From Thermodesulfobacteriota bacterium (GTDB lineage Bacteria > Desulfobacterota > Desulfobacteria > Desulfobacterales > JAUWMJ01): DNA of 42,905 nt. Positions within the stretch are counted from its first letter, which is position 1. Each line of letters starts with the position of its first letter. Below are positions 9,562-30,333 of the stretch, in pieces. Location of the stretch: the NCBI GenBank assembly GCA_034189135.1, contig JAXHVO010000054.1:1-42905 (forward strand), given 5' to 3'. Below the pieces are notes generated by a model that was given only the letters and a program-made list of their open reading frames with translations, was not told the DNA's origin and ran no database searches. Position numbers and translations under genes: made by a program.

Positions 9562-11598
9562 ATGAGCGCAGAAAAATATAAAAGAAGGCTGACCGCCATT
9601 TTTAGTGCCGATGTCGTTGGATATAGCCGACTCATGGGTGAAGATGAGGCCGCTACCGTTGATACGATTACCAACTATCGTGAAATCATCGCCGATCTGA
9701 TCGAACAGCACCGGGGTCGAATGGTGGACTCTCCAGGAGATAATATCCTAGCCGAATTTGCCAGTGTGGTCGATGCTGCCCAATGTTCCGTGTCTGTCCA
9801 GAAGGAAATCCAGGCCCGTAACAATGAACTGCCTGTGGACCGAAGGATGCAGTTTCGCATAGGGATCAACCTGGGCGACGTGATTGAGGAAGGAGAAAGG
9901 ATATATGGAGACGGTGTAAATATCGCGGCAAGGCTCGAAGCTCTTGCAGACCCTGGCGGGATCTGTATATCAAAAACAGCCTTTGACCACATCGAAAGCA
10001 AGCTGCCTTTAGGATATGAATATATTGGAGAACAGTCAGTCAAAAATATTTCCAAACCGGTGATGGCTTACAAGGTATTAATGGACCCCAGGATTATCAC
10101 ATCCGGTGAAATTAAGCAGAAAAAAGAGATGCCACCCTGGTCGAAAAAATCCGCCATTGCAGTGGGAATCGCCATCATTACCATTTTCATGGCGGTGGGA
10201 ATCTGGAGCTTCTATCTTGGCGGTCGTTTAACCGAGCGAGCCACAGGGGGGAAGGCCTCCATTGTGGTTTTACCGTTTAAGAATTTGAGCGATGACCCTG
10301 AGCTGGAATATTTCAGTGATGGTATTACCGAAGAGCTGATCGGTGCACTGGCTGAAGTGAGAGGACTGAAAGTCATTTCTCAGACCTCGGCCTTTTTTTA
10401 CAAAGGAAAAGATGTGGATCTTCGCACGGTAGCTGAAAAGCTCAAGGTGAACAACGTGCTTGAAGGAAGCGTGAGAAAGTCCGGCAATAAACTTCGGATC
10501 AGCGCCCAGCTTATTAAGGTTGCCGATGACACTCACCTGTGGTCGGAAAGCTATGACCGAGAGATTAAAGGGGGATTCGATATTCAGGATGAGATATCTA
10601 TGGCAGTTGCCAAAAACTTGAAGGCGCAACTCCTGGGAATTGAGGACGAGCTTTTGGCCCATGACTACCTTCGGCGGTTTAGTGTCGATACAATTATAAA
10701 ACAAGGAGAAAAGATAGAGGGCGGGTTGTCGGCCTTTGGTGCCAATATAGAAATGGCCGGGACGGTGAATGGGGGTCTTGAAGCCTTTGGAGCAAATATA
10801 ACCATTTCGGGAAAAAATCAGGGTGACCTCAAATTTGCCGGCGCAAATGTAATTCTCGCCGGAGAATTCCTCGACATCGTGAAGGGTCTATCGGCAAATT
10901 TAACCATTTCAGGCACCTTTGAGGATGACCTTGTGGTAAGGGCAGCAAGGATAACGATCGCTCCATCAGCCGTGATCAAAGGTGACTTTGCATACTCCAC
11001 CGCCTTGTTTGAACGAAAAGAGGGATCACAGATAATGGGGAAAGTGGTCCAGTTGGAGAGCGAGGAAGGGGAAGTCTGGGCACGAAATAAACCGCAGTAT
11101 GAAAAGGGCCCCGATTTTTTGGCCAAGAGCCTGTTTTGCATCATCTCCGCCATAGCGCTTATTATTGTCGGGTGGCTTGTCTATTACCTCTTGCCCAAAC
11201 AGACTGAAGAAATAGTTTCTACCATCGCCGGTTCGATGTGGAAAAGTTTGGGAATCGGTTTGATCGTTTTAGTGGTGACGCCGCTTTGCATCATAATCAC
11301 CTTGCTTACCGCCATAGGAATACCCGCGGGAATCATCATGGCTTTTCTTTACATCATTATGATATATATCAGTCGTGTGTATGTGGGGCTCTGGATCGGG
11401 AGGATGCTGTTGGGAAATTTTAAAGAATCATTGACCGCTTCCTTTTTTTGGCCTTTGGTGACCGGGACCATCATTATCGGAATCCTATTGCTCATTCCTG
11501 TCATCGGCTGGCTGTTGAGATTCTTTCTCCTCTTAATCGGTCTGGGTGCCATGTGGCAGGTTTTATGGCATTTTGTTAAACCGGTTAAAACCGTATAG
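9562..11598 (+). CDS. Class III nucleotide cyclase fused to FlgO/TolB-N-like, beta-solenoid and polytopic membrane modules
   Basis: A 678-residue multi-domain protein. Residues 8-175 are a class III cyclase domain: D17 in FSADVVGYSRL and D60 in SPGDNILAEF would bind the metals, and N120/R124 in VNIAARLE the transition state. A membrane helix follows (197-219). Residues 231-360 match the TolB-N/FlgO-like domain often found after such cyclases (SIVVLPFKNLSDDPELEYFS, VLEGSVRKSG, LIKVADDTHLWSESYDR). Instead of the usual TPR tail, residues 375-500 form short glycine-rich beta repeats (AFGANIEMAGTVNGGLEAFG) like bactofilins. Residues 521-668 hold about five membrane helices. AGGGGTG lies before the ATG. 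The frame is open throughout, so this is one fused gene. It probably makes a cyclic nucleotide in response to an envelope signal (inference). Confidence 0.85.
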   Translation: MSAEKYKRRLTAIFSADVVGYSRLMGEDEAATVDTITNYREIIADLIEQHRGRMVDSPGDNILAEFASVVDAAQCSVSVQKEIQARNNELPVDRRMQFRIGINLGDVIEEGERIYGDGVNIAARLEALADPGGICISKTAFDHIESKLPLGYEYIGEQSVKNISKPVMAYKVLMDPRIITSGEIKQKKEMPPWSKKSAIAVGIAIITIFMAVGIWSFYLGGRLTERATGGKASIVVLPFKNLSDDPELEYFSDGITEELIGALAEVRGLKVISQTSAFFYKGKDVDLRTVAEKLKVNNVLEGSVRKSGNKLRISAQLIKVADDTHLWSESYDREIKGGFDIQDEISMAVAKNLKAQLLGIEDELLAHDYLRRFSVDTIIKQGEKIEGGLSAFGANIEMAGTVNGGLEAFGANITISGKNQGDLKFAGANVILAGEFLDIVKGLSANLTISGTFEDDLVVRAARITIAPSAVIKGDFAYSTALFERKEGSQIMGKVVQLESEEGEVWARNKPQYEKGPDFLAKSLFCIISAIALIIVGWLVYYLLPKQTEEIVSTIAGSMWKSLGIGLIVLVVTPLCIIITLLTAIGIPAGIIMAFLYIIMIYISRVYVGLWIGRMLLGNFKESLTASFFWPLVTGTIIIGILLLIPVIGWLLRFFLLLIGLGAMWQVLWHFVKPVKTV

Positions 11599-27015: not shown

Positions 27016-30000
27016 ATGAACCAGCGCACGGATGACGATCTGCCCCGTGGCTCATTTTATGGCCTGGTGACAGATAAAATATCGGTAGATGCATTTAAAC
27101 CTAAATTTGGGGATGCAAAAAACTTTGCGGTGTTTTCTTTTTTGGTCAAACAAAAGGATACCGCCACCAAGTTGAAGGGTTATATTTTGCAAAAAAACTT
27201 CGATTTATTTGACGTCGAAGTTTCACCGAATCCAGAACCGGACCCGCAAAAGGATGGGAAATATATACTTTTTATAGAGATGCTGAGAAACAAGGATATG
27301 TTTGCCACCATGGACAAGTTGCTTTTACATATCGATCATCTGGTATCAATAAAACAATGGCATTTCAAAACTTCTGCTGTTAAAGAGTATATGGATTGGA
27401 ACAGAGACAATTTTTTAAAAGCCGTTTGTCAATCGCCGGATGAGTACTCCAACCAAACGCCAGTATCCAAAGACAACGATGAAATCGATCCCGCCACCCA
27501 AAATTCGAATGATGGAAATATTAATCACCGCCTTTTAGAAAAAATTATTCAAAGGCAAATGGCCAAATTGAACCAGTCGTACATCGAATCATTGAAAGAA
27601 CACATTAAAGCCATCAATGAAAATAAACTGCAGCTGTCTCGACATATCGAAGACTTAAAAATTGACAGGGATCGCCTTTACAAACAGCTGGAGTTGAGTC
27701 ACGATCGTGAGAAAATAGCTCTATTACGTGAACAGCAGGATTTTAAAAGAATAAAATCTCTCAAAAAGCAACTCGCACTCCTGACCGCTCCGGCTTCAAG
27801 AGAAATGGAAATTGTCATCCCGGATGAAACTGCATATGACACCGATACAAAACCTGTCGAAGGTTTAGAGTCCGCTGTAGAAGAAATTAAAGATGAAGAA
27901 GAAATATATACCGAAACCCGGGATGAATACCAAAAAGCCCCATTAGAGGAGGAGCCCCCCGATGAATCGCCGGTTTCAAATAAATCATCCGGCCCGAATG
28001 TCGTATCGGATCTTCCTGACAGAATTACCATTGAAGAATCGTCCGGTTTTGTCAGACAGATGTACTGTGATGACCCGAATAAAGATGAAAGTAAAACAAA
28101 GCCGTTAGAACATGAGGATCCTGTCACGTCTATAAATAATGAACCTGAAAACCCCGAAAAAGAAAAAATAGATACCACCCATAACGAAACGGAAAATCTG
28201 GCAGCCGAACCATCTACACCTGCGAAAAATGATGAAATCCTTGAATTTGAAACTCCGGTGGAGCTGCAAGACCTCAAGCATGTTGAATCGGATGATTCAG
28301 CCGCAGAATCGCGATCAGACGATATTATTGTACAGAGCCTCATAGAAAAATCGACGGCCAAGGTTGAAGATGAATCCCGCCTTGCGGACGATCTTGTTCC
28401 CAAATACATGGTTTTAGGCCGTAAAGCCTTGGAAAAAAATGACTATGACCGTGCCATTGAATATTTTTTAAAAGTTGTTGATATACTACCAACCGCCGGA
28501 ACTGTTGTTTTGAATCTGGCAGATTTGTATTTTATTAAGCAAGAATTTGTGAATGCCAGGAAGTATGCCATCCAGGCTATGGAATTGGGTGAAGAATCTG
28601 CCACTTTGCTTTTAGAAAAAATTGATGCGGTGCTTGCAGAAGATGCAGGCCCTCCGTCTTCTATCGATAATAATATAGGAAAAATTTCTGAAAATCTGAT
28701 CGCCCGGCAAGATGGTACCAATCAAGAAGAGGAAGAGTTAGAAGATACGGTATTTATTGAAATGTCTGCTTTAAACGAAGCAGCCGATTCAGCAGAAGAA
28801 AAAATACCAAATGCTATCAAAGATATTGTTTCCCAAGATGATGAAAAAATTGAGCCAAAAGACGACGCCAGAAAATACATGACCCTGGGAATTAAAGCCG
28901 CCGGAATGAAAGATTATCACCAGGCTATTGAACATTTCAGTAAGGCTGTTGAAATACTTCCCGACAGCGCATCCGGGTTTTTTAATCTAGCAGTTTTAAA
29001 CTACAAGCTCAAGGAGTATGAAACCGCATATATGCATGCCGAAAAAGCGATCGAGTTGGGTTCGCCTTCCGCTGTCCAGATTCTGGAAAAAATAAAACCG
29101 TTAAGGGTGACTGAGGCAAAATCTCCTCAGGTTGACAGCGGAAAAGAAAGGGAAACCTTTTTTATCGAGTCTGCTGCTGCGACTCTGGAAGAGTTTATAA
29201 AAACAGAAAAGATCGAACAAACAGATACCGCTGTTGATTCATCCCATCGAGAAAAAGATGCGGTGGTGAACGATATCTTTAAACTCGGACTGGCTGCACT
29301 GGGTAAAAAAGAATTTTCCCAGGCGATCAGGCATTTCAATAAAGTCGTTGAGCTGTTGCCCAATGGAATTCCAAGCTATATTCATCTGACCAAAATACAT
29401 TACAAACTGGGAAAATACCGCCAGGCCCGTAAATATGCTAAAAAGGCATTTGAATTAGGGGATTATACCTTAAAACCGATTTTAGCAAAAATCGATGCTA
29501 AATTGGCCAAACAACCTGCTCAACCCCCTTCTACAGGTCCCATAAAACTTAAGGAACAACAAACCCCGGCCGAAACTGCTAAGGACACCAAAGAGAAACC
29601 TGAGGTGCAGCAATCTCACCATGATGCAAAACCGGGCATAAATGCGGGGGGAAATTGGCCTGAACCGAAGCTTATGGGGGAAAAGCCGGATGTCGATATC
29701 ATGCAACCGGTTGCTTTGGTCGCCGATTCAAGACAAAGTACAACACCAGCCGACTCAGAGCAGACTGTTTCAGAAGCATCAACTGATGAAAAAAAGAACA
29801 AACCGCCGCTACCGGAGGTCCCGATCGAAACCGGGGAAGTAAAGCTGGATCATATAACCAAAGCAAAGCCGGAATTACATAGCGAAAGTCTGACGGAAAC
29901 TATCACCCAGGGCAAAACCGCCTTGAAGCAGAGTCAGAATTTAGCAAAACCCGCAGACACCACACAACCGGAAGCCAAAGATGAGTTCACATCCGAAACA

Positions 30001-30333
30001 CCTTCTCAAGATATGTCCCTGCAAACAGAAAATCCTAAAGTTCCACGTGAATACGGTTCTATCGACGAGTATTTTGAAGCCGGTCTGGCGGCATCGGAAA
30101 GGAATGACTTCAACTTTGCGCTGGAATATTTCAATAAAGTTGCTCTGGCTTTACCAAAAGCACCGGCCAGTTTTCTCAACATGGCGGATATTCATTATCG
30201 AATGAAGAATTTTAAAACCGCTCGTAAGCATGCTGAAAGAGCACTTGATCTGGGAGCACATTCCGCCCATCGGATACTAAGCAAAATTGAAGATTCTCTG
30301 AAGGAAAAGAGCAGCCCTGCTCCCCTAAAATGA
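27016..30333 (+). CDS. Large TPR-array protein with acidic linkers
   Basis: A 1105-residue cytoplasmic protein without signal peptide or membrane helix. Residues 1-130 are a folded domain I do not recognise (GSFYGLVTDKISVDAFKPKF, KYILFIEMLRNKDMF). Residues 172-258 form a coiled coil. Four separate TPR units of about 80 residues follow at 463-542, 617-695, 753-832 and 1015-1096, each with the pattern (A)xxxxDYxxAIExFxKVVxxLP and a second helix pair ending in A-x-ELG. Between them are 70-180 residue linkers rich in E, D, K, P, S, probably disordered. It looks like a scaffold gathering partners on spaced TPR docks. It is convergent with guaB; the partner is unknown. Confidence 0.8.
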   Translation: MNQRTDDDLPRGSFYGLVTDKISVDAFKPKFGDAKNFAVFSFLVKQKDTATKLKGYILQKNFDLFDVEVSPNPEPDPQKDGKYILFIEMLRNKDMFATMDKLLLHIDHLVSIKQWHFKTSAVKEYMDWNRDNFLKAVCQSPDEYSNQTPVSKDNDEIDPATQNSNDGNINHRLLEKIIQRQMAKLNQSYIESLKEHIKAINENKLQLSRHIEDLKIDRDRLYKQLELSHDREKIALLREQQDFKRIKSLKKQLALLTAPASREMEIVIPDETAYDTDTKPVEGLESAVEEIKDEEEIYTETRDEYQKAPLEEEPPDESPVSNKSSGPNVVSDLPDRITIEESSGFVRQMYCDDPNKDESKTKPLEHEDPVTSINNEPENPEKEKIDTTHNETENLAAEPSTPAKNDEILEFETPVELQDLKHVESDDSAAESRSDDIIVQSLIEKSTAKVEDESRLADDLVPKYMVLGRKALEKNDYDRAIEYFLKVVDILPTAGTVVLNLADLYFIKQEFVNARKYAIQAMELGEESATLLLEKIDAVLAEDAGPPSSIDNNIGKISENLIARQDGTNQEEEELEDTVFIEMSALNEAADSAEEKIPNAIKDIVSQDDEKIEPKDDARKYMTLGIKAAGMKDYHQAIEHFSKAVEILPDSASGFFNLAVLNYKLKEYETAYMHAEKAIELGSPSAVQILEKIKPLRVTEAKSPQVDSGKERETFFIESAAATLEEFIKTEKIEQTDTAVDSSHREKDAVVNDIFKLGLAALGKKEFSQAIRHFNKVVELLPNGIPSYIHLTKIHYKLGKYRQARKYAKKAFELGDYTLKPILAKIDAKLAKQPAQPPSTGPIKLKEQQTPAETAKDTKEKPEVQQSHHDAKPGINAGGNWPEPKLMGEKPDVDIMQPVALVADSRQSTTPADSEQTVSEASTDEKKNKPPLPEVPIETGEVKLDHITKAKPELHSESLTETITQGKTALKQSQNLAKPADTTQPEAKDEFTSETPSQDMSLQTENPKVPREYGSIDEYFEAGLAASERNDFNFALEYFNKVALALPKAPASFLNMADIHYRMKNFKTARKHAERALDLGAHSAHRILSKIEDSLKEKSSPAPLK

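Follow-up and report, generated by a model that had tools for sequence, protein, structure and literature searches.

A predicted class III nucleotide cyclase joined to a bactofilin-like beta-solenoid and a polytopic membrane module in one conserved chain

A gene of a Thermodesulfobacteriota bacterium encodes, judged by sequence comparison, a single chain in which a class III nucleotide cyclase, a membrane helix, an FlgO-like domain, a bactofilin-like beta-solenoid, and a polytopic membrane module follow one another and are held together by selection (Table 1). The gene lies in the window, i.e., the whole stretch of 42,905 nucleotides that was analyzed, which is the entire contig C54 of a 4.6-Mb draft genome in 140 contigs. 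A preliminary description of this DNA had proposed an uninterrupted frame of 678 codons carrying a cyclase, an FlgO-like domain, a bactofilin-like solenoid, and membrane helices in one protein; the reading frame at 9562 to 11598 is indeed open throughout, and the arrangement is conserved in a homologue of the same length.

To our knowledge, the usual description of bactofilins is that of scaffolds in the cytosol, rather than of components of a signaling enzyme. No description of a bactofilin-cyclase fusion was found among the papers listed in searches of the open-licence PMC literature; in the part of PMC12364344 available to us, a paper that mentions both bactofilin and adenylate cyclase, the cyclase term refers to a two-hybrid assay.

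Table 1 Layout of the fusion gene, with positions in the window and the basis of each assignment
Feature	Position	Strand	Basis
Whole fusion gene	9562..11598	+	678 codons plus stop, ATG start at 9562; open frame, ungapped homologue of the same length at 72% identity
Class III nucleotide cyclase domain, residues 1-176	9562..10089	+	Pfam PF00211; PDB 3mr7; alignments
Membrane helix 1, residues 199-217	10156..10212	+	hydropathy 2.37; lysine-rich N-terminal flank (N-in)
FlgO/TolB-N-like domain, residues 230-357	10249..10632	+	PF17680 and TolB_N matches below cutoff; end of head homology
Junction, residues 358-371	10633..10674	+	lies past the point where head homology usually stops and ahead of the residue where tail homology sets in
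Bactofilin-like beta-solenoid, residues 372-500	10675..11061	+	AF2 model; fit to 6rib; hhalign with shuffle controls
Polytopic membrane module, residues 522-669, 4-5 helices	11125..11568	+	hydropathy; loop charges; AF2 confidence low there

Recurrence and rarity of the fusion

How widespread is such a chain? Among 389 genomes sampled from the order, a tail match at an E value of ≤0.001 was found in 9, and a full tail match within a frame of fusion length was found in 2, the window's own genome and G157. The latter belongs to another family of the same order, and its 678-aa protein aligns with the window protein without gaps at 72% identity, so that the search for the same architecture elsewhere, suggested in the preliminary description, had a positive outcome. 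The tail was also matched in 3 of 96 genomes of relatives, 5 of 291 genomes of the class, and 19 of 297 genomes of the phylum, the class and phylum counts coming from a three-row profile and including short bactofilins as well as a small number of weak or spurious matches; in these three samples, the sole full tail match in a fusion-length frame was the window genome's own copy. The genome samples overlap, and the counts are therefore not additive. Tails occur in 1 of 4 genomes of the family of G157 and in 1 of 12 of the family of G226, and a pattern-based, nonexhaustive scan of a collection described as 84,980 species returned two loci, one fused and one stand-alone. The architecture is rare in the samples.

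Further candidates for a fused genome were set aside. L025 (JAFDAT010000085.1) and L019 of G157 are one locus, hence the count of two fused genomes. Locus L020 of G226 holds only the tail end (108 positions aligned) at a contig end, with its head off the contig, and was not counted as a fusion; it is 68.5% identical to the window protein, 61% identical to L025, and at most 51% identical to stand-alone forms, and no close head was found in the 73%-complete G226 genome.

Between the two fused genes, dN/dS is 0.12 overall (Nei-Gojobori; dS of 1.1 to 1.5, close to saturation), with values of 0.065 for the cyclase, 0.219 for the helix-1 linker, 0.128 for the FlgO-like domain, 0.092 for the solenoid, and 0.182 for the membrane module. 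The low ratio in every segment indicates that the whole chain is maintained. Identity between the two proteins is 76% in the solenoid and 61% each in the membrane module and the helix-1 linker, which are the least conserved parts. Phylogenetic analyses place the two fused proteins as sisters with 100/100 support both in a tree of 25 heads, from which four short matches (L057, L058, L003 minus, and L059 minus 5544) and identical rows were left out, and in a tree of 17 tails, in which L018 has a very long branch. The simplest reading is a single fusion event, which either predated the split of the two lineages or was passed between them.

Could the fusion be an assembly chimera or another local artefact? 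The draft state of the genome would allow it, and the tail is found as a separate gene in other genomes, a circumstance that the preliminary description had linked to such an artefact. Yet the fusion recurs, ungapped and over its full length, in a genome of another family, and both of its halves are sisters with full support; short of an identical assembly error in both genomes, this second occurrence rules an artefact out, and we regard the chance of one as negligible.

The neighbors of the fusion gene in the window include genes for an FAD oxidoreductase and a GAF protein by Pfam, and the gene downstream of the L025 fusion is, by eye, a convergent GAF/PAS/LuxR-like gene. The downstream neighbor thus differs between the two, and no conserved operon or pathway-pointing neighbor was seen when the window was compared with L025 on the downstream side. 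The window also encodes a TPR-rich protein of 1,105 aa (27016 to 30333), unrelated to the fusion gene.

The solenoid tail and its stand-alone relatives

Among the domains that the preliminary description had proposed to search for, PF00211 (Guanylate_cyc) exceeded its cutoff, FlgO remained below its own, as did TolB_N in a TPR-tailed paralogue, and PF04519 (Bactofilin) was silent on the window protein, whose tail was searched even with E values up to 10 allowed. At that setting, the C-terminal half gave no Pfam match at all, and an NCBIfam scan yielded no name for the tail. In the fused homologue, PF04519 matches residues 377 to 476 with an E value of 3.3e-6 and 27.7 bits, 0.2 below the cutoff of 27.9; one stand-alone relative exceeds the cutoff (E value of 1.8e-8), and 11 of 17 aligned tail relatives match at an E value of ≤0.1 (best, 5.9e-10).

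Profile comparisons by hhalign point the same way. Against five bactofilins that are genuine by Pfam (PF04519 E value of 1.5e-21 or better) but were retrieved by tail searches, which biases the comparison toward a match, an alignment of three tails scored a probability of 96.6 (E value of 6.6e-10), and the solenoid columns alone scored 97.15, while 100 column shuffles reached at most 2.36 and the reversed alignment reached 0.98. Against three own-genome bactofilins that the Pfam model had retrieved and the tail searches had not, the probability was 42.6 (E value of 2.5e-4, score of 29.4), with 100 shuffles giving at most 1.05 in probability and 16.7 in score, the reversed alignment giving 1.59, and the window row alone giving 20.6. 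This independent comparison is weaker, yet well above chance; it leaves our estimate unchanged, because the homologues match the Pfam model regardless of it.

The preliminary description had placed the solenoid at residues 375 to 500, close to the range of 372 to 500 determined here, and had proposed a structure prediction that might have found none. An AF2 model of residues 359 to 678 from three sequences has 12 strands over residues 369 to 497, with block pLDDT values of 73 to 95 over residues 369 to 508 and 60 or less in the membrane part; the full-length model has a mean pLDDT of 46.3, and the head is unusable in it. The top Foldseek match is BacA 2n3d (probability of 1.00, E value of 0.025), with no match below 0.001. 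In VIA-align, where Z values below about 13 are common for repeats, the Thermus thermophilus bactofilin 6rib is fitted over 97 of 101 residues at 1.8 Å with a Z of 12.2. Six chains outrank it, rows within 1 Z being ties: 4i84 (Z of 15.5), 4rm6 (13.7), and 2odl (12.8), which are other helices with rmsd values of 2.8 to 3.8 Å, and 4e6t, 7tgh, and 2qkx, with rmsd values near 11 to 12 Å. The left-handed helices LpxA, LpxD, and GlmU fit at an rmsd near 11 to 12 Å, which may reflect their handedness. Because 6rib is outranked and its Z lies under the caution line, the bactofilin claim is carried by the sequence evidence: the structure comparison says beta-helix, and the sequence profiles say bactofilin-like.

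The hydrophobic autocorrelation of the solenoid peaks at lag 17 (0.24, a value without a control), and the members of a single pair of DNA repeats are spaced 102 nt apart, i.e., 34 residues or two 17-residue lags, although a two-copy family may be chance. By profile and model, the tail qualifies as a homologous beta-solenoid of the bactofilin kind. It has this fold in common with bactofilins (PF04519; BacA of Caulobacter, 2n3d; T. thermophilus, 6rib) and differs from them in lying below Pfam detection, in carrying a membrane module, and in being probably extracytoplasmic; filament formation, a trait of bactofilins, is putative here.

The tail also exists without the cyclase. The tail alignment kept 2 fused tails and 15 stand-alone forms, the latter being 276 to 372 aa long and running from a hydrophobic N terminus through the solenoid to membrane helices. 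Left out of it were L023, L041, L043, L045, and L047, which are other stand-alone forms; L020, which is partial; L052, which duplicates L039; L030 and L051, which match in the membrane part alone or are false; and five short bactofilins. Among large frames with weak partial tail matches, L022 (1,285 aa) and L051 (513 aa) were judged false by eye from their sequences, and L031 (1,430 aa) was set aside as false without inspection of its sequence.

The five nearest bacterial stand-alone forms are 41 to 49% identical to the tail (residues 372 to 678) over nearly its full length, and the homology of the nearest forms with the fusion starts at residues 372 to 377, directly after their signal-peptide region. 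Four haloarchaeal, plasmid-borne forms are 23 to 26% identical over 69 to 78% of the tail; all four records are annotated "polymer-forming cytoskeletal protein," and the two inspected by eye have the same pattern of signal peptide, solenoid, and helices. Haloarcula WP_284011324.1 and Halobellus WP_103993014.1 are examples of such proteins. Scans of the non-haloarchaeal members gave no Pfam or NCBIfam name of the family's own. Solenoid and C-terminal polytopic module form one homologous block in this family as in the window tail, whereas the stand-alone proteins have no enzyme and begin with a signal-peptide-like N terminus, the place of which is taken by the cyclase head in the window protein. 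Homology thus shows the predicted tail to belong to this signal-peptide/solenoid/polytopic-membrane family, joined just past where the signal peptide would end. Since the signal peptide is replaced by the head, the window protein is, on this comparison, a fusion containing the module rather than a plain family member. Proteins with this layout (L084:561-1682, L085:627-1733, and relatives) span bacteria to haloarchaea.

The cyclase head and its TPR-tailed relatives

PF00211 matches residues 12 to 161 with an E value of 2.1e-9 and 37.7 bits (cutoff of 21.9), and the best solved cyclase relative in a PDB search is 3mr7 (E value of 2.9e-35). Alignments and the sequence letters show D17 and D60, the metal residues, and N120 and R124, those of the transition state, all in place (roles as described for the class; PMC3770947); by domain match and these residues, the window protein is assigned to the class III nucleotide cyclases. 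The base-specifying positions are D56 (9727-9729) and R113 (9898-9900), which in 3mr7 and Ma1120 are occupied by K and D. The protein is thus without the canonical Lys/Asp (ATP) pair, which is not needed for class membership, and because these positions are noncanonical, activity cannot be taken for granted, and the substrate and product (cAMP or cGMP) are not predictable. Of the 8 heads aligned, 5 have R and 3 have T at position 113; D56 is invariant in all 8, so the departure from the canonical pair looks like a subfamily trait rather than decay.

The replaced pair could also mean that the cyclase part is a pseudoenzyme with little or no catalytic activity, which would leave the protein as an envelope scaffold only. 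The metal and transition-state residues are retained, D56 does not vary, and the cyclase is the most constrained part of the chain, all of which argue against this reading; in addition, replacement of the Asn/Arg pair does not keep XC_0250 of Xanthomonas from making cGMP, according to the accessible part of PMC3770947. We consider a pseudoenzyme quite unlikely. XC_0250 of Xanthomonas campestris, compared here by its description in that part of the source (PMC3770947), is a guanylate cyclase that resembles the window protein in having an N-terminal class III cyclase and a long repeat-containing tail, but its tail consists of TPR repeats instead of a solenoid and polytopic membrane module, and the transition-state Asn/Arg absent from it are present in the window protein.

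Beyond helix 1, FlgO (PF17680) matches residues 233 to 323 of the window protein with an E value of 0.05 and 13.9 bits, below the cutoff of 22.6, and remains below it in the fused homologue (E value of 6.3e-4, 20.0 bits), while TolB_N reaches an E value of 1.7e-4 and 22.1 bits in a TPR-tailed paralogue, also short of its cutoff of 22.4. Since no match exceeds a Pfam cutoff, residues 230 to 357 are termed only FlgO/TolB-N-like. Homology to the window head (query of 371 aa) stops at residue 357 in 9 of the 13 distinct full-length heads, at 363 in 2, and at 367 in 2.

That cyclases of this type normally end in TPR repeats after the FlgO/TolB-N-like domain, as the preliminary description stated, agrees with all three long-tailed relatives scanned (two from the own genome, one from G010), and the tails of other relatives resemble TPR tails by eye. 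TPR-tailed relatives in the own and related genomes have the head, the membrane helix, and the FlgO/TolB-N-like domain in common with the window protein. Heads at 45 to 60% identity are numerous in these genomes: the full protein has 18 matches in its own genome (the window protein itself and distant cyclases counted), and the head has 30 in G067 (fragments and distant ones counted). The predicted cyclase-helix-FlgO-like head is thereby shown to be a member of a large paralogous set with TPR as the usual tail.

Class III cyclases are greatly expanded in the own genome, G000 (L053-L058), and in G067, many full-length ones having TPR-like tails, and some relatives (L053, L060) have a double FlgO-TPR arrangement in open frames of 1,034 to 1,048 aa.

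TPR repeats are not the only tails found. Two own-genome cyclases (L057:1886-2950 and L058:1414-2655) match the head over its first 190 to 196 residues only and carry other membrane tails, suggesting that tail exchange is a habit of this cyclase set; by eye, one of these tails resembles a TM2 domain, and in the other, helices flank an SH3-like stretch. The fusion itself shows that the tail of a large cyclase set can be exchanged.

Topology and proposed working

On which side of the membrane does the solenoid lie? Hydropathy gives four membrane segments after residue 500; a fifth helix is a reading of the long hydrophobic C-terminal stretch, which has a Pro-Gly break, so that the preliminary count of about five stands for four and depends on that reading for the last. 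No membrane segment was found by hydropathy between residues 217 and 526 of the window protein. All 15 stand-alone tails of the alignment are hydrophobic near the N terminus (best 15-residue mean hydropathy of 1.97 or more), and the two fused tails have no such stretch in their first 50 residues (0.86 and 1.03). When the first ATG was simply taken as the start, a hydrophobic segment began within the first 23 residues in 17 of 20 stand-alone forms; L041, L043, and L045, with the start chosen by script, have no early one. Among five short true bactofilins retrieved by tail searches, none has a membrane segment.

The B-C and D-E turns are free of K/R in all 17 rows of the alignment, and the A-B loop, the C-D loop, and the C-tail have K/R in all 17; with five helices, these charges would put the solenoid outside and the C terminus probably inside. 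The evidence is soft, as the turns lacking K/R span just 4 and 6 residues, K/R and D/E are equal in number (2 each) in the A-B loop of the window protein, D/E being frequent there in other rows too, and the linker from the solenoid to helix A has 1 to 8 K/R per row. The lysine-rich N-side of helix 1 (residues 199 to 217) fits a cytosolic cyclase. Given the exported-type N termini of the stand-alone relatives and the broadly agreeing loop charges, the solenoid is most likely extracytoplasmic, unlike classical bactofilins, which are located in the cytosol. In two relatives (in L063 and L064), no membrane helix precedes FlgO-TPR; hence, homology alone does not settle on which side the FlgO-like part lies, and it need not always be outside.

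These observations also bear on a reading in which everything up to the C-terminal helices is cytosolic and the cyclase is tied to a cytosolic bactofilin cytoskeleton. Classical bactofilins are cytosolic and the own genome has four of them, but the N termini of the stand-alone relatives, the membrane helix between the cyclase and the FlgO-like domain, and the loop charges oppose it, and we hold this reading to be very unlikely. The preliminary proposal of a cyclase tied to an envelope scaffold therefore keeps the tie, made by one conserved chain, while a tie to the cytosolic cytoskeleton, which its wording may imply, becomes unlikely; an envelope-facing sensor or scaffold fits better.

Our preferred reading, to which we give about an even chance, is that the protein may be a receptor-type class III cyclase in which the usual TPR tail has been swapped for an envelope-facing solenoid and membrane anchor that report the state of the envelope inward. 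The single helix of the head would direct export in place of the tail's signal peptide, leaving the cyclase in the cytosol, the FlgO-like domain and solenoid outside the cytoplasm, and the C terminus anchored by the membrane module. By self-association or by binding another envelope part, the solenoid could join chains or separate them. Because class III cyclases function as dimers, solenoid-driven pairing of chains would change the relation of the two cyclase domains and set the synthesis of cNMP, reporting the envelope state to the inside. A bolder version, which we think improbable, has the solenoid polymerize or stack outside the cytoplasmic membrane, with the state of the filament (assembled, stretched, or broken) setting cyclase dimerization inside; if true, it would be a direct second-messenger readout of an extracytoplasmic bactofilin-like scaffold.

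Alternatively, the tail may be an anchor or positioner only: the cyclase would be constitutively active, and the solenoid and membrane module would keep it at certain sites of the envelope but have no part in its regulation. The membrane module and helix-1 linker, at the lowest identity between the fusions, would suit this, and both polymerization and membrane binding of a bactofilin are needed for partner recruitment, as stated in the part of PMC12448750 available to us. The strong constraint on the solenoid counts against it, as does the FlgO-like domain, which still links head and tail just as it does in relatives with TPR tails, and we regard a pure anchor as a real though minority prospect. 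Under the preferred reading of an inward-reporting receptor, cNMP output would report on the solenoid and offer an experimental handle, and the joining of a cyclase to a bactofilin-like solenoid, probably on the outer face, would give a little-studied exported bactofilin-like family a testable role as envelope sensor or scaffold.

The four classical bactofilins of the own genome (G000; L065-L068) are ordinary short ones on contigs C65, C86, and C119, two of them lying about 240 bases apart on C119.
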